Under the pieces are notes generated by a model. It saw nothing but the letters and a program-made list of their open reading frames with translations, was not told the origin of the DNA and made no database searches. Position numbers and translations under genes: made by a program. This document shows, in pieces, positions 1,915-8,005 of a stretch of 64,000 bases of DNA (within the stretch, counting starts at the first letter, position 1; each line of letters begins with the position of its first letter). Source of the DNA: Flavobacterium sp. ALD4 (GTDB lineage: Bacteria; Bacteroidota; Bacteroidia; Flavobacteriales; Flavobacteriaceae); assembly GCF_002836475.1 (NCBI RefSeq), contig NZ_PJBJ01000029.1:1-64000 (forward strand), read 5' to 3'.

Positions 1915-4119
1915 ATGAAAAAATTATTACTCTTATTGCTATTATTAGTGACGGCATTTCAAGGTTTTTCCCAAACCAAAGGAATCAGTTACCAAGCGGT
2001 GATATTAAATCCTAAAGGGAATGCAAATGGACAAAATAATGTATTGGCCAACACCCAGGTTTCCATACAATTTACAGTTGTAAATGCATCTGGGACTAAT
2101 GAGTACATAGAAACACATACTACAGATACGGACAGATATGGTATGGTCAATCTTTTAATAGGAAGCGATCCAACAACAAGCAGAGGTGATTTCGGAGCTA
2201 TTTTTTGGGATGGTGAGACAAAGAAATTAAAAGTAGAGATTGATTTTTCAGGAGGCAGTAACTTCAGCTTTTTAAGTGAGCAAAATTTGACTTACATGCC
2301 ACATCCGCCAACGAAAGAAGTAACGGATGGCATTAAGACAAATGCGGCAGCAATTTCAGAGGAAGTAACAAGAGCAAAAGCAGCAGAAGAAACAAATGCA
2401 GCAGGTATTTTAGCATTAGAAACTGAACAAGTAGCTCAGAATAGTGCTATTGAATTAAATACGGTAAAAACAGGCAGCATTGATGCACAGGCAGCAGCTA
2501 TTACCGATTTGCAAGCTCAAGTCGCCACTTTACAATCCCAAATAAAAGGATTACTACCAAGTTCATTATCTAGTGTAAGTATTGGTACCCAAGGATGGCA
2601 AACCAGGAACTTGGATGTGACGGCTTATAGAGACGGTACTCCAATACCTGAAGTAACGGATGCAGCCGCTTGGGCAGCATTAACCACAGGGGCTTGGTGT
2701 TATAACGAAAATGAAAGCTCAAATGGCACAACTTATGGTAAATTATATAATTGGTATGCGGTAGCAGGAATACATGATGCTGCCTCGTTAACTGATATAT
2801 CCTTAAGAAAGCAATTAGCCCCAACAGGCTGGCACGTTCCTACAGATGTGGAGTGGACCACATTAACCACTTTTTTAGATCTACGAGATAATACAGGTAA
2901 CTTAGGAGGCAAGATGAAAGAAACGGGAATAAGTCCTGATGGTACCTGGTTAAGTCCTAATACGGGCGCTACTAATAGTAGTGATTTTACGGCTCTTGCA
3001 GGAGGTTTACGCGGTGGCCGCAGCGGCTTATTTAGCCCCATTGGCGAGAATGGTGCCTGGTGGAGTTTTAATACTGCCTACGGCCTTCGCCTAATAAACA
3101 CTAGTGGCGATGTATTCAGCAACAATCTAAATCCAACTGCTGGTTTATCAGTGCGTTGCCTCAGGGATTTAGGAACAGCTATTGCGCCACAAGTTCCTAA
3201 TGCACCAATCATAGGGACAGCTATAGAGGGGGGTAGTCAGGCGAGTGTAACATATACTGCTCCTGCATTTAATGGCGGTTCACCAATAACCATATATACG
3301 GCGACTTCATCACCAGATAATATTACAGGTACTCTAACACAGGCAGGAAGTGGCATAATAGAAGTTACCGGTCTCGCCTTGGGAATCACTTATACTTTCA
3401 CAGTAACCGCTACAAATGCTGAAGGAGAAAGTGCAGCAAGCACAGCTAGTAATACGGTAACAGGATCGGAAGCAGGTTCACTATCTAGTGTAACCATTGG
3501 TACCCAAGTATGGCAAAGCAGGAACGTGGATGTACCTACTTATAGAGACGGTACTCCAATACCTGAAGTAACGGGTGCAGCCGCTTGGGCAGCATTAAAG
3601 ACAGGGGCTTGGTGTTATTATCGCAACGACTCAGCAAACGGCACAACTTACGGTAAATTATATAATTGGTATGCGGTAAAGGGCATAACTGCTGCAGAGG
3701 ACGCAACACCAACTGATGTACAAATAGCTGCAAGAAAGCAATTAGCCCCAACAGGCTGGCATGTTCCCACAAATGAGGATTGGAGCACATTAACCAATTT
3801 TTTAAATCAACAAGATCCTCTTAGTGGTAACACAGCATACCAGATGAAAGAAACGGGAACAACGCACTGGTTAAGTCCTAATGAAGGAGCTACTAATAGC
3901 AGTGGTTTTACAGGTCTTCCAGGAAGTATACGGGGGGGCGATTTTGGGACATTCATCGACGATCAATTCTATGGCATTGGCAATTTTGGTAGCTGGTGGA
4001 GTTCTACGGAGTCCCGTCCACTAAACGCCGATTCCCGTCACCTGAGTAACGAGAGTATTGTAGGAAGACTCATTGAACTTAAGACCTTTGGTCACTCAGT
4101 TCGTTTCGTCAGGGATTAA
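1915..4119 (+). CDS. Surface protein with two FISUMP domains and an Fn3-like module
   Basis: This 734-residue protein starts with a signal peptide (MKKLLLLLLLLVTAFQGFSQ). Residues about 22-135 form a domain common at the N-terminus of Bacteroidota surface proteins (KGISYQAVILNPKG). An Ala/Glu-rich coiled coil spans about 140-210. Two FISUMP (Fibrobacter succinogenes major paralogous) domains at about 218-418 and 523-734 share WQTRNLDV / WQSRNVDV, YNWYAV and APTGWHVPT. A fibronectin type III-like module (about 425-518; TYTFTVTATNAEGES) joins them. No T9SS sorting domain is visible, so the surface anchor is unclear. The FISUMP copies are also very similar at DNA level, which indicates internal duplication. 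Function unknown; adhesion or a structural role is only a guess. Confidence 0.88.
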   Translation: MKKLLLLLLLLVTAFQGFSQTKGISYQAVILNPKGNANGQNNVLANTQVSIQFTVVNASGTNEYIETHTTDTDRYGMVNLLIGSDPTTSRGDFGAIFWDGETKKLKVEIDFSGGSNFSFLSEQNLTYMPHPPTKEVTDGIKTNAAAISEEVTRAKAAEETNAAGILALETEQVAQNSAIELNTVKTGSIDAQAAAITDLQAQVATLQSQIKGLLPSSLSSVSIGTQGWQTRNLDVTAYRDGTPIPEVTDAAAWAALTTGAWCYNENESSNGTTYGKLYNWYAVAGIHDAASLTDISLRKQLAPTGWHVPTDVEWTTLTTFLDLRDNTGNLGGKMKETGISPDGTWLSPNTGATNSSDFTALAGGLRGGRSGLFSPIGENGAWWSFNTAYGLRLINTSGDVFSNNLNPTAGLSVRCLRDLGTAIAPQVPNAPIIGTAIEGGSQASVTYTAPAFNGGSPITIYTATSSPDNITGTLTQAGSGIIEVTGLALGITYTFTVTATNAEGESAASTASNTVTGSEAGSLSSVTIGTQVWQSRNVDVPTYRDGTPIPEVTGAAAWAALKTGAWCYYRNDSANGTTYGKLYNWYAVKGITAAEDATPTDVQIAARKQLAPTGWHVPTNEDWSTLTNFLNQQDPLSGNTAYQMKETGTTHWLSPNEGATNSSGFTGLPGSIRGGDFGTFIDDQFYGIGNFGSWWSSTESRPLNADSRHLSNESIVGRLIELKTFGHSVRFVRD
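2563..2763 (+). repeat. FISUMP coding repeat, copy 1
   Basis: This part of the 1915-4119 gene encodes the start of the first FISUMP domain. It aligns closely to 3478-3678, including a shared run of about 40 bases around the codons for YRDGTPIPEVT. Confidence 0.85.
3478..3678 (+). repeat. FISUMP coding repeat, copy 2
   Basis: This is the second copy of the 2563-2763 segment within the same gene. Nucleotide similarity is high through the first 200 bases of the domain and falls towards the C-terminal end, where the domains differ in length. Confidence 0.85.
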
Positions 4120-4142
4120 TACTTTGACCCTTAGAAAAATAG

Positions 4143-4165
4143 AAGGGGCATTAGCCCCTTTTTTT
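4143..4165 (+). terminator. Terminator after the FISUMP gene
   Basis: Stem AAGGGGC / GCCCCTT with an ATTA loop, followed by T-rich sequence, 24 nt after the stop codon. Confidence 0.85.
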
Positions 4166-4218
4166 ATAAAAATGCATTGCTCATTACTGCATTTTATTTT
4201 CAAAACAAAACGTTAGTA

Positions 4219-4279
4219 GGTGCTCGTCTGTGAAGAGTAGCTTCTTGAACTGAAAGAAGAGTCGTAGCGTTTGCAACGC
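4219..4279 (-). repeat. REP unit, inverted copy 1
   Basis: This is the reverse complement of the direct units. Hairpin B lies at 4219-4241 (diverged in its right arm) and hairpin A at 4267-4279 (GCGTT-TGC-AACGC), with the same 25-bp spacer. It is the outermost unit on the 3' side of the RAYT gene. Confidence 0.8.
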
Positions 4280-4343
4280 AGGATTAAAACTTTATTAAAA
4301 CAAATCAAGGGCTACACTAAATTTTGACTTGCCTTCATTAACA

Positions 4344-4382
4344 AAGGGTCTTATCAGCATAAGGTTGATAAGACCCTTTTTT
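4344..4382. terminator. Strong hairpin with T-run between genes
   Basis: AAGGGTCTTATCA pairs with TGATAAGACCCTT across a short loop and is followed by a T-run. It sits about 225 nt after the FISUMP gene and inside the REP-flanked region. Its orientation suits plus-strand transcription, but no gene directly upstream explains it. Confidence 0.7.
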
Positions 4383-4614
4383 ATTGGCGGAGAGCTCTCT
4401 GTTATAATGCGGAGATTGGTTTCGACCACGCGAACAGCTGCAACCGCGCAATGAGTTGGGATATTGCTTTCATCATTAAGGGGAGTCTTGTTTCCAAATC
4501 AAATTTGTAACTTTGAGCAATATTAAATCATGAGAAAAAAATGTTGAAACCAGAAAGCATTAAAATACTTCAAATCGATAGTAATAACCCCATTTTATCG
4601 GGACAATCCCATCT

Positions 4615-4675
4615 CTTGCTCTTCTGCGACGAGTACTTACTTAGCTTTGTAAACTGAGTAAAGGGTTTTTAACGC
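4615..4675 (-). repeat. REP unit, inverted copy 2 (degenerate)
   Basis: Hairpin B lies at 4615-4637 (core CTTCTGCGACGAG). The diverged hairpin A at 4663-4675 matches about 10 of 13 bases and has lost its GCA/TGC loop. The 25-bp spacing is kept. It ends 17 nt from the RAYT stop codon. Confidence 0.65.
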
Positions 4676-4692
4676 TGCTCCAACAAAAATCA

Positions 4693-5244
4693 TCACAAAG
4701 GCTCTACATTTACATTATAAAAAACAGTATTATCTTCTTCATAATTCCTATGACTACTATTTACATAATCTCTTTCATAGAAAACAATTTCGGCATCAAC
4801 AGGATTATAATGTATATAGTTTACACGTTGTTCTATTTTTTCTAAAGTATCTAAAATAAAAGGATGAAAACCATCTTGCCATAATTTATAATTTTTCGTC
4901 CTCCCTGTTTTTTGCGCCTCAAAACTAAATTTCCGTAATAGCCATTCTCGTCGACTCTCAGTATGTTCTTTGATCGCTTCTATTAGTTTTTTTGATGTGA
5001 ATTTTTTAAAATCCCGAATAATATTTTGCAATTCACTATCGAAAGCCGTTACAATTAAATGTATATGACTCGTCATATAAACATAAGCATGTACACTCAA
5101 TCCTTTTTCTTTGATACAATAATTTAAGGATTCATCCAAGATATTACAATAAACAGGTCTAGTAAATAAATCTACCCAGTCTACGACTGTTATAGTAATA
5201 AATGTTGGTACTGTACTATCAATAACTTTGTATTTCTCAGACAT
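4693..5244 (-). CDS. REP-associated tyrosine transposase (RAYT, IS200/IS605 Y1-like)
   Basis: This 183-residue HUH-type single-strand DNA transposase-like protein shows the HUH metal-binding pair as H60-I-H62 in YMTSHIHLIV. A helix around DFKKFTSKKL follows. The family-typical LWQDGFHPF lies at about 121-129, and YIHYNPV at 143-149 probably includes the catalytic tyrosine (Y143 or Y146). Length fits RAYT proteins. It is framed by REP units, the arrangement expected for a RAYT. Its start codon lies in one arm of a perfect 11-bp inverted repeat (5242-5252 / 5272-5282), which may limit translation. No accessory TnpB is present. Activity on the local repeats is inferred from family behaviour. Confidence 0.88.
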   Translation of the reverse strand: MSEKYKVIDSTVPTFITITVVDWVDLFTRPVYCNILDESLNYCIKEKGLSVHAYVYMTSHIHLIVTAFDSELQNIIRDFKKFTSKKLIEAIKEHTESRREWLLRKFSFEAQKTGRTKNYKLWQDGFHPFILDTLEKIEQRVNYIHYNPVDAEIVFYERDYVNSSHRNYEEDNTVFYNVNVEPL

Positions 5245-5282
5245 CGTTTTCTATCAAATGTATTAATTTTAAGAAAACGATG
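5242..5282 (-). promoter_or_regulatory. Inverted repeat covering the RAYT start codon
   Basis: CATCGTTTTCT (5242-5252) and AGAAAACGATG (5272-5282) are perfect 11-bp arms around a 19-nt loop. On the transcript the arm includes the AUG start codon of the transposase, so folding would hide the initiation site. A protein-binding operator is an alternative. Confidence 0.6.
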
Positions 5283-5327
5283 ATATAAAAAACAGTAGCT
5301 TCATTATTACTTCTGTTTTAGTTAGCC

Positions 5328-6087
5328 GCGTTGCAAGCGCTACGATTTGTCTTTTAATTTAAGTAGGTACTCGATGCAATCGAGCACCAGAGGAAGAAGT
5401 TAATTATAAAAGCCGCATTGCAAATGCTTTATTTAGTTCAGACAAGTAAGTAGGTACTCGTCGCAGACGAGCACCAGATAAAGTTAAGTCATCTCGGTTT
5501 TAGTTATCCCCGTTGCAAACGCTACGATTTGTCTATTAATTTAAGTAGGTACTCGTCGCAGACGAGCACCAGATAAAACCATTGGGATCATATTAAAAAA
5601 AAGAGGAGTTAGGTCATCCCAGTTTTAGTTAGCCGCGTTGCAAACGCTATAATATGTCTTTTGATTTAAGTAGGTAAAACCATTGGGATCATATTAAAAA
5701 AACAGGAGTTAATTCATCCCAGTTTTAGTTAGCCGCGTTGCAAACGCTCTAATATCCCTTTTAATTTAGGTAGGCACTCGATGCAATCGAGTACCAGAGA
5801 ACGTGGACAAACGAGTACCAGTGGGTGTGGCTAAATTTGTTCTAAAAAATAAAGTAACGCGATGGCGCAAGTAGTTTGTCTGTCATAGCGGAGTAACCAC
5901 GTGGCAAACGCTATAATATGCCTTTTAATTTAAGTAAGCACTCGATGCAATCGACCACCAGAGAACGTAGACAAATGAGTACTAGTAAAAAAAACAGGAG
6001 TTAAGTCATCTCGGTTTTAGTTATCCACGTTGCAAATGCTATAATATGCCTTTTAATTTAGGTAGGCACTCGATGCAATCGAGCACC
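5328..6087 (+). repeat. Array of seven direct REP units
   Basis: Units lie at 5328-5388, 5415-5475, 5510-5570, 5635-5676 (truncated), 5735-5795, 5899-5959 and 6027-6087. Each full unit is hairpin A (13 bp, such as GCGTT-GCA-AACGC), a 25-bp AT-rich spacer, and hairpin B (23 bp, core CTCGTC-GCA-GACGAG or CTCGAT-GCA-ATCGAG). Linkers between units vary, so this is not a perfect tandem repeat. Two blocks (about 5579-5650 and 5689-5750) are near-identical and look like a recent local duplication. No gene was found in 5245-6338. Confidence 0.88.
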
Positions 6088-6309
6088 AGAGAACGTGGAC
6101 AAACGAATACCAGTGGGTAAATTGTATCGATAACTAGGAAAAGCGCATTAAAAACGGATTTCGATAGATTTTCTGTTACTTTTTACTACACAAAAAACAT
6201 TCGAACTGAAGTTTTAAATAATTACATACAGCGGGTTACGATAATGTTAAATCAAATTAGTTGTTTACTTTTCTTATGGATGATTTAAATTTGTTTGTTC
6301 TTTAATGTG

Positions 6310-6317
6310 TATTTTTG
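6310..6317 (+). promoter_or_regulatory. Probable -7 promoter box of pafA (TATTTTTG)
   Basis: It matches the Bacteroidota -7 consensus TAnnTTTG, 21 nt before the ATG. A TTG at 6291-6293 lies 16 nt upstream. A second match, TAAATTTG, lies at 6286-6293. Confidence 0.55.
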
Positions 6318-6338
6318 TACACAAAAATATTTTTAAAG

Positions 6339-7952
6339 ATGAAAAAACTGATTTTGTTTTTGGCTGTTATTATTATGTCAAATTTACAAGCACAAGACCG
6401 ACCTAAATTGGTCGTAGGTATCGTTGTTGATCAAATGAAAATGGAATATTTGTATCGTTTTTCCAATGATTTTTCCCCTAATGGATTTAAAAGATTAATG
6501 GATAACGGGTATACGTTTCAAAATATGCATTTTAATTATATGCCAACTTATACGGGACCTGGACACGCTTCAATTTATACAGGAACCACGCCAGATACTC
6601 ACGGTATCGTAGGTAATGAGTGGTTTAGTAGAACATTAGGGAAAGAGATGTATTGTACAGATGATGCTAGTGTAAGTACGGTAGGTGATGGAACGAAGGA
6701 AGAGGGAGAAATGTCTCCTAAGAATCTACTAACGACAACTATTACTGATGAGTTGCGAATGGGAACTAACTTTAAGGGAAAAGTTATTGGTATGAGTCTT
6801 AAAGATCGGGGTGCCATTTTACCAGCGGGGCATTTTGCAAATTGGGCATTTTGGTACAGCAAAACGGGTTCTTTTATTTCCAGTACTTTTTATGGCGAAA
6901 AACTTCCAAATTGGGTTCAGAAATTCAATGACGAAAAACATTATATGCCTTATATCAATAATGGATGGGATTTATTGAAGGCTAAAAGTACGTATAATGA
7001 AAGCCTAGAGGATAATAATCCATATGAAGGTAAATTGTACAATAGTACCGCTCCAATTTTCCCTTATGATTTAAAGGATATGTATGCTAAGAATGATGCG
7101 GGTGTATTGCGTGCAACTCCGTTTGGGAATAATCTATTAGCTGAGTTTGCGATGAAAGCGATAGAGAAAGAGGAGTTAGGAAAAGATAACGTTACTGACT
7201 TTTTAACGGTTAGTTTTTCTTCTACAGATTATGTAGGTCATTTAATGGGACCAAGATCAATGGAATTACAAGATACTTACTTGCGATTAGATCAAACCAT
7301 AGCTGAGTTTTTGAATTATCTGGACAAAACTGTTGGTAAGGATAATTATTTATTGTTTTTGACCGCTGATCATGCCGGCGCTGAAAATGTAAATTATTTA
7401 AAAGACCATAAATACAATGTAAATAGTATTAGTCCTGCAGTTATTAGAAATAACCTGAAGGATTTTTCCATAAAGACTTTTGGTGTTGATTTAGTATTGA
7501 ATTATTCCAGTTTTAATTTATTTTTCAATAGAGAAGTAATCAAAAGTAAAGGATTGGAGTTGGTTAAAGTTAAAGATGCATTTAAGAGTTATTTGATGAC
7601 ACAAGATTACGTAAAGAGAGTCTATAGCGAAGAGGATATTTTAAATTCAACCGGTAATGATTATTTTTTAAATTTCATTGCAAAAGGGTATGATGTAACG
7701 CAAAACGGAGATTTGGTTATCTTAGATAAGCCAGGTTATATAGAATATCAAGGTACCGGAACGTCGCACGGAACAACTTATTCTTATGACACGCATGTTC
7801 CTGCTATTTTTTATGGCTGGCACATTAAAAAAGGGGAGTCTTTTAATAAAAAAGAGATCACTCAAATTGCACCAACGATTGCCCAGAAGATAAAAATTTC
7901 ATTTCCTAACGGAACTGAAGCTCATGTTCTTGAGGAAGTTTTGAAGGACTAA
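6339..7952 (+). CDS. pafA: Alkaline phosphatase PafA (phosphate monoesterase)
   Basis: This 537-residue periplasmic metal-dependent phosphatase of the alkaline phosphatase superfamily has signal peptide MKKLILFLAVIIMSNLQAQ. The catalytic set of Elizabethkingia PafA (T79, N100, K162, R164, from memory) appears with a constant offset of seven: T72 in PTYTGPGHAS, N93 in GIVGNEW, K155 and R157 in SLKDRGA. Zinc ligands fit D31 near the N-terminus, TADHAGAE, and HGTTYSYDTHVP near the C-terminus. PafA releases phosphate from many monoesters and is widespread in Bacteroidota. The ATG at 6339 is preferred to an in-frame TTG at 6315 because it leaves a clean signal peptide. Probably a single-gene unit ended by the hairpin after 7952. 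Confidence 0.92.
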   Translation: MKKLILFLAVIIMSNLQAQDRPKLVVGIVVDQMKMEYLYRFSNDFSPNGFKRLMDNGYTFQNMHFNYMPTYTGPGHASIYTGTTPDTHGIVGNEWFSRTLGKEMYCTDDASVSTVGDGTKEEGEMSPKNLLTTTITDELRMGTNFKGKVIGMSLKDRGAILPAGHFANWAFWYSKTGSFISSTFYGEKLPNWVQKFNDEKHYMPYINNGWDLLKAKSTYNESLEDNNPYEGKLYNSTAPIFPYDLKDMYAKNDAGVLRATPFGNNLLAEFAMKAIEKEELGKDNVTDFLTVSFSSTDYVGHLMGPRSMELQDTYLRLDQTIAEFLNYLDKTVGKDNYLLFLTADHAGAENVNYLKDHKYNVNSISPAVIRNNLKDFSIKTFGVDLVLNYSSFNLFFNREVIKSKGLELVKVKDAFKSYLMTQDYVKRVYSEEDILNSTGNDYFLNFIAKGYDVTQNGDLVILDKPGYIEYQGTGTSHGTTYSYDTHVPAIFYGWHIKKGESFNKKEITQIAPTIAQKIKISFPNGTEAHVLEEVLKD

Positions 7953-7970
7953 TTTAGTTTATGGCCGTAA

Positions 7971-8005
7971 AAAAAGCTGTGTTTTTTAAAACACAGCTTT
8001 TTTTT
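7971..8005. terminator. Bidirectional terminator between pafA and lysA
   Basis: AAAAAGCTGTGTTTT pairs with AAAACACAGCTTTTT and is flanked by A-runs and T-runs. It lies between convergent genes and can serve both. Confidence 0.88.

Follow-up and report, generated by a model that had tools for sequence, protein, structure and literature searches.

A flavobacterial RAYT gene with inverted two-hairpin REP units recurs as a discrete block that may still be able to jump

REP-associated tyrosine transposases (RAYTs) are the classic example of a transposase that has ceased to move itself while still serving repeats, the repetitive extragenic palindromes (REPs), and four studies present their genes as single-copy or as free of any sign of mobility (PMC8266576, PMC8049555, PMC3116915, PMC6006769). 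Here we describe a RAYT gene from a 64,000-nucleotide stretch of the genome of Flavobacterium sp. ALD4 (contig NZ_PJBJ01000029.1, positions 1 to 64,000, hereafter the window) which lies between inverted copies of a repeat unit and recurs together with them at many apparently unrelated sites in other Flavobacterium genomes. The closest described system is RAYT subclass 2.6 of Quentin et al. (2018, PMC6006769), which corresponds to RAYT group 5 of Bertels et al. (2017); the former reports for it a median spacing of 82 between the HuH motif and the tyrosine and repeats without GT[AG]G, and mentions Bacteroidetes RAYTs with 'atypical secondary structures'. In the E. coli REPs, the GTAG tetranucleotide and a mismatch in the hairpin are both required for cutting, according to PMC8266576. 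RAYT-like genes with double-palindromic inverted repeats have been published as well (Di Nocera 2013, PMC3733652). Our search of one literature library returned no paper joining RAYT, REPIN and Flavobacterium, or 'tyrosine transposase' with Flavobacterium.

The RAYT gene and one unit on either side form a block of 783 bp in the window (Table 1) and of about 710-790 bp in most other copies, and it is this recurrence of gene plus one unit per side as a discrete block that is new here. With the 783-bp sequence as query, 44 of 398 genomes of the genus matched at E values up to 1e-20, many of them through the units only; the comparison set consisted of 35 RAYT loci with their flanks from 27 Flavobacterium genomes, loci fetched earlier included. 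Inverted units stand on both sides of the gene at 31 of the 35 loci, while at the other four one unit was not found, the gene running into a contig end in two of them. The units at these loci face outward in 95 of 103 cases, at 19 loci the fetched stretch holds two units at most, and the RAYT is matched over its full length in one frame at 25 loci, the rest being broken or cut by contig ends. The edges of the block are equally those of the homology: between pairs of copies (n = 454), DNA similarity is lost no more than 10 bp from the outer unit end in 408 pairs on the 3' side and in 256 on the 5' side, and it extends more than 30 bp past the block in 12 and 9 pairs, respectively, overruns that apparently are mostly due to extra tandem units.

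What surrounds the block differs between most copies. The 31 copies with both inverted units occupy about 27 different contexts, a count to be read with the scope of the comparison, since most flanks spanned about 1.5 kb and two copies (in genomes G208 and G258 of our numbering) were compared by a single flank, and a few further shared sites may have escaped notice. A positive control, the Fpet/G261 pair, has 2312 bp of DNA in common, 1502 bp of it past the 3' end, and flank proteins are common to Fpet and G317 on both sides and to Fpet, G261 and G317 on the 3' side. The copies of G065, G231 and G342 (loci L127, L386 and L384) have the same gene on the 5' side of the RAYT, with 91-100% protein identity, and no common 3' flank was detected among these three; the remaining tblastx matches between flanks are short or probably represent second RAYT copies. 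The best matches of the window's neighbouring gene (6315-7952), in G005, G007 and G030, do not lie beside the RAYT. Homology bounded by the block in about 27 contexts speaks for mobility of the gene, though no empty site was found at the places searched.

Further support comes from copies within one genome. The description of RAYTs as one copy per genome does not hold for G050, whose single contig carries a pair of intact copies 2.4 Mb from each other (461 kb and 2855 kb). Their identity is 89.9% over 742 bp, and beyond the block and its extra unit the fetched loci have no homology to each other. Second RAYT copies, some of them broken, also occur in G007 (as a tandem pair), G145, G319, G292, G259, G435, G280 and G295, pairs of 76-79% identity being present in five genomes; the window's own genome has a single full copy. 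Near-identical copies in three genomes were considered as proof of recent jumps, a use that is weakened by their placement near contig ends and by a shared stretch in G021. In G319 two broken copies, 94.5% identical over 745 bp and without shared flank, lie near contig starts and form an ambiguous pair, as do the several copies of G145 (best pair 95.2%), clustered at the ends of two contigs in what may be one and the same cluster. The copies of G021, a single contig with another RAYT clade, are 97.6% identical over 657 bp, lie 385 kb apart and end at hairpins; the two loci (L392 and L134) hold several RAYT copies each, 96-98% identical and about 1.1 kb apart, and share a further 436 bp at 72% identity, collinear with one copy, so that an old duplication is possible, with clusters that may have been kept alike by gene conversion.

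The preliminary description of the locus had counted two reverse units on the 3' side of a Y1-type transposase gene and seven forward units on its 5' side, a count that we confirm with the remark that one of the seven has lost its outer hairpin. Matches to a 38-nt core pattern with up to three mismatches number 6 in the window and 0 in 100 dinucleotide shuffles. The unit, first given as 61 bp long, is better described as having about 67 nt and terminating in CCAG[A/T]. Read outward from the gene, it consists of an inner hairpin (GCGTT-GCA-AACGC), an AT-rich spacer of about 25 nt, GTAG, an outer hairpin and CCAG. The two hairpins, already proposed from the window alone, are supported by compensatory changes: among 120 distinct units (124 copies in all, in an alignment that was fitted to the structure) 91.6% of cells pair, and two-sided changes number 78 versus 18 in shuffles. 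An exact GTAG at the foot of the outer hairpin is found in 74 of the 120 distinct units (and in five of eight aligned window units), an A x C mismatch in this hairpin in 91, its GCA loop in 73 and CAGA or CAGT after it in 89; conservation falls off at both ends of the unit. Folding of four units as single-strand DNA, on both strands, gave z values of -1.3 to -3.0, the first hairpin often being displaced by an alternative fold.

By its predicted structure, the unit is a GTAG-tagged REP plus a second, inner hairpin. The idea that it differs from the tetranucleotide-tagged palindrome of enterobacteria stands as regards this second hairpin and fails as regards the tag, and since it is GTAG-tagged the unit is nearer to the enterobacterial REPs than had been claimed. 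Like the E. coli REPtron (PMC8266576), the locus has a GTAG foot, a mismatched hairpin, inverted repeats around the gene and the fold of TnpAREP (4er8); unlike it, there is an inner hairpin, dispersed copies are few (6 outside the RAYT locus) and the gene sits at many sites. We also considered the unit as an inverted, tail-to-tail REP dimer in Di Nocera's terms, with CTAC after the first hairpin and GTAG before the second. This reading was not adopted because exact CTAC is present in just 36 of the 120 distinct units and because the GCA loop lies on one and the same strand in both hairpins, which is not expected of an inverted pair; a pairing of CTAC with GTAG is possible, and the shared loop polarity would agree less well with an inverted dimer than with a pair of ends on one strand. 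The TIRtrons and TIRYTs resemble our system in their RAYT-like genes and flanking inverted repeats, some of them 'double palindromic' and some repeated in the genome, but most of these repeats are described as unrelated to GTAG REPs (PMC3733652), whereas here GTAG stands at the foot of the outer hairpin.

Table 1. Coordinates of the block, the RAYT gene and the repeat units in the window
Feature	Position	Strand	Basis
Discrete element: 5' unit, RAYT, 3' unit	4611-5393	minus	Similarity to the DNA of other copies ends at or close to both edges
RAYT / TnpAREP gene, 183 aa	4693-5244	minus	Open reading frame, profile matches, motifs, fold
Unit r1, further unit on RAYT 3' side	4216-4282	minus	
Unit r2, 3' end of element	4612-4678	minus	Two-hairpin unit
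Unit f1, 5' end of element	5325-5391	plus	Two-hairpin unit
Unit f2, further unit on RAYT 5' side	5412-5478	plus	
Unit f3, further unit	5507-5573	plus	
Unit f4, truncated, outer hairpin lost	5632-5684	plus	
Unit f5, then second partial end CAAACGAGTACCAGTGGG	5732-5798	plus	
Unit f6, further unit	5896-5962	plus	
Unit f7, then second partial end	6024-6090	plus	

A covariance model built from eight window copies of the unit matched 15 places of the window's own genome at E up to 1, nine at the RAYT locus and six elsewhere (weakest E 0.37). In the relatives, 18 of 120 genomes carry units, at least 1-15 each, at E up to 0.01, these counts being lower bounds as 43 candidates were scored per genome; the unit is thus not high-copy, unlike the usual description of GTAG REPs. 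The proposed link between unit and RAYT clade is supported, with exceptions: units occur in all six genomes whose RAYT is close (87% identity or more), at least 9-15 each, versus 12 of the other 114 with at least 1-10 each (Fisher 5e-6). Among the latter, G059 and G058 have RAYT fragments beside the units, and in G046 a unit is preceded by an apparent decayed RAYT end. Units frequent in a genome lacking the RAYT, which had been named beforehand as a sign against the link, were encountered in part, in G016. Neighbouring units no more than 250 bp apart form 26 pairs, 17 tandem and nine inverted, the latter spaced by about 45-93 bp and all nine in the orientation of the element ends, with none in the opposite one. 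This recalls the REPINs (Bertels and Rainey 2011, PMC3116915), which are likewise inverted pairs at short distance and in a single orientation; unlike in REPINs, each half here has two hairpins, and the same pair also encloses a transposase gene.

The protein itself is a RAYT by profile, motifs and fold. The open reading frame matches Pfam Y1_Tnp at 27.5 bits (cut-off 23) and NCBIfam REP_Tyr_transpos (NF047646) at 83 bits (cut-off 80), and it contains the HuH motif (H60-I-H62), W122-Q123, the tyrosine Y143 within YIHYNP, and S163-S164, of which H60, H62 and Y143 are invariant across 68 aligned sequences. A structure model built from 68 sequences (pLDDT 86.7, pTM 0.84) has E. coli TnpAREP (4er8) as closest solved structure, by fold (VIA Z 16.2, rmsd 2.3, 142 residues aligned) as by profile, followed by IS608 (Z 13.7, 107 residues aligned). 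This relationship, together with the inverted units on both sides of most copies, supports the earlier naming of the locus as a REPtron. With IS200/IS605 the system shares a Y1 HuH transposase, hairpin ends and a small block; it differs in that its ends are inverted copies of each other and that the protein stays below the cut-off of the TnpA-IS200 model (22.1 against 55 bits). A reading as defence or phage gene was dropped, PADLOC matching no family and PHROG giving one weak transposase match. The median dN/dS of 0.041 over 196 pairs among 23 intact genes (57 of 253 pairs having been excluded for saturated synonymous change) indicates, at the level of sequence, that the RAYT gene is under purifying selection.

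Within the RAYTs, the window protein resembles subclass 2.6 (group 5), and its membership is likely. As given in PMC6006769, this subclass has in common with our locus its occurrence in Bacteroidota, a spacing of 82 (83 here), the WQ motif, the C-terminal SS and repeat copies elsewhere in the genome; the presence of GTAG and the recurrence of the block at apparently unrelated sites set our locus apart. The window protein has YIHYNP and SHIH where the subclass pattern reads YIH[QN]NP and NH[LIV]H. Among 74 stop-free homologues from named Bacteroidota records (six of 80 were dropped for stops or frame), the spacing is 83-85 in 70, the SS motif is present in the C-terminal part of all 74, and YIHNNP or YIHQNP occurs in 41.

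The sequences themselves show the two hairpins, the limits of the block, its presence at many apparently unrelated sites and the multiple copies in some genomes, and insertion-sequence-like turnover is the simplest account of the RAYT copies. Our preferred reading, to which we give a probability of roughly 0.58, is that the block is an autonomous transposon, a RAYT between inverted REP ends of two hairpins each. Its recurrence suggests that a RAYT-type gene, usually described as fixed in place, is still able to jump. The mobile block would consist of unit, RAYT and inverted unit. By analogy with E. coli TnpAREP, the protein would bind the GTAG-tagged outer hairpin as single-stranded DNA, cut near the outer edge of the unit by means of Y143, and move either the entire block or one unit or a pair of units elsewhere. 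On this view the window's tandem array, like solo units and inverted pairs, would be non-autonomous offspring of the block, and the nine inverted pairs of like orientation would be what is expected of REPINs or gene-less elements.

Several observations weigh against this proposal, in addition to the short flanks and the ambiguous or clustered copies of G319, G145 and G021 mentioned above. When the flanks of solo units were joined and searched for, those of nine units in three genomes and those of five in two genomes, no clean empty site appeared, nor did the surroundings of three RAYT sites reveal one; neither a target duplication nor a target motif was found at 14 solo-unit sites and three RAYT sites. 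At one site in G005 the block edge adjoins a gene truncated at that point but of greater length in G004, the other side being without match. Alignments stop short of the unit end in 134 of the 454 pairs on the 5' side (26 on the 3' side). G016 combines at least 10 units with the lack of any RAYT match at E 0.001, and units show no difference in decay where the RAYT is lacking (11.44 of 13 pairs, versus 11.48 for dispersed units of RAYT genomes, p 0.46). Lastly, homologous recombination between units, gene conversion or transfer as cargo could relocate the gene.

Of the other explanations, an ordinary REPtron, in which a fixed, domesticated RAYT multiplies REPs and its gene spreads vertically with occasional horizontal transfer, survives best and is in our estimation unlikely. 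It is the view taken in PMC8266576, PMC8049555, PMC3116915 and PMC6006769, it agrees with the one full RAYT copy of the window's own genome and with a site that G005 and G030 appear to share, and it has difficulty with the block-bounded homology in so many contexts and with the second intact copy of G050. We regard as quite improbable that recombination or gene conversion between units exchanges the gene as a cassette and homogenises it, the RAYT not being the mover. Such exchange predicts the same block boundaries, gene-less unit pairs in the right orientation exist (9 of 9 close inverted pairs), the site of the gene in G050 is occupied by solo units in G005, and the G021 loci resemble an old duplication recently homogenised. 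Against it, the units are only about 67 bp long and those compared are mostly 75-90% alike, short, diverged repeats of this kind being poor substrates for recombination, and more than half of the RAYT loci (19 of 35) offer two units at most within the stretch that was fetched. Finally, that the units are mainly RNA-level signals kept by the host (terminators, mRNA protection), the RAYT link being incidental, would agree with their structure and mostly intergenic position (6 of 58 solo units lie inside an open frame of 100 aa or more) and is very improbable given their association with the RAYT clade and their inverted placement at the element ends. Rfam yielded no family at gathering score within positions 3000-8000 of the window.

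The preliminary description saw in this locus an undescribed system. This is supported in part, atypical Bacteroidetes RAYTs (PMC6006769) and RAYT-like genes with double-palindromic inverted repeats (PMC3733652) being already published; the transposon-like recurrence of the block, of which that description made no mention, is the part that adds to them. If the proposed transposition is true, a transposon-like RAYT clade would reveal what other RAYTs have lost, and the 67-nt unit and the block of about 750 bp would be small, clean substrates for experiments on the cutting, copying and insertion of REPs. A broader idea, which we put forward tentatively and at less than even odds, is that the group-5 RAYTs of Bacteroidota might represent an autonomous, self-moving stage lost by other RAYTs, and the 67-nt unit a minimal mini-transposon of the single-strand type, its left hairpin and GTAG-guided right hairpin lying on one strand with both loops of the same polarity, so that one transposase would move unit, pairs and block.

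We surveyed 80 named Bacteroidota RAYT loci (L135-L214), 77 of them with enough flank for an inverted-repeat test, and found an inverted repeat around the RAYT in 59 of 77, versus 1 of 77 in random pairings. The inner hairpin is significant at p 0.05 in only 34 of 118 Bacteroidota units (about 6 expected; 17 at 0.01), so many relatives seem to be single-hairpin, and the evidence for two-hairpin units across Bacteroidota is suggestive and falls short of a general proof. Loop polarity, taken from one unit per locus, is NNA in 33, TNN in 6 and ambiguous in 10 outer hairpins, and NNA in 18, TNN in 1 and ambiguous in 5 inner hairpins. In the outer hairpins of the 118 units, A x C with A on the 5' arm occurs in 37 (at 21 loci) and C x A in 2, and it is possible that this mismatch is a recognition mark of the whole group. 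Outward GT[AG]G hairpins on both sides are present at only 2 of the 80 loci; as a general tag of the subclass, GTAG is unsupported beyond this clade and a few Flavobacterium loci.

Other Flavobacterium RAYT clades (L024-L045, L128-L134) carry hairpin families of their own, e.g. GTGGGCACGGATTGCAAATCCGCGCTATCGG, so that several repeat families can share one genome. Three loci of G261 (L418, L448 and L450) contain a roughly 140-bp repeat, GTTGAACAGCC... TTTCAAGAG, whose end falls at nearly the same base each time and which adjoins different hairpin families; this repeat may be attC-like or mark a shared insertion point. By eye, a second partial end, (G)ACAAACGAG..CCAGTGGGG, lies within about 15 nt past the unit at some 11 of 49 element ends, in the window at 5799-5825 and 6091-6117 and elsewhere at loci L365, L368, L372, L374, L377 and L385, and CCAGTGGGG may be the true end of the element.

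Around the array, the window shows three more features. Between the two 3'-side units, a 21-nt inverted repeat followed by a T run (4336-4386) looks like a terminator. Past the array, about 110-130 bp within 6116-6245 match many places in other Flavobacterium genomes at 77-88% identity, and could be either another repeat family or a conserved promoter region. At 1915-4119 lies the gene of a 734-aa protein with a long domain in two tandem copies, whose DNA is 82-88% identical over three stretches.
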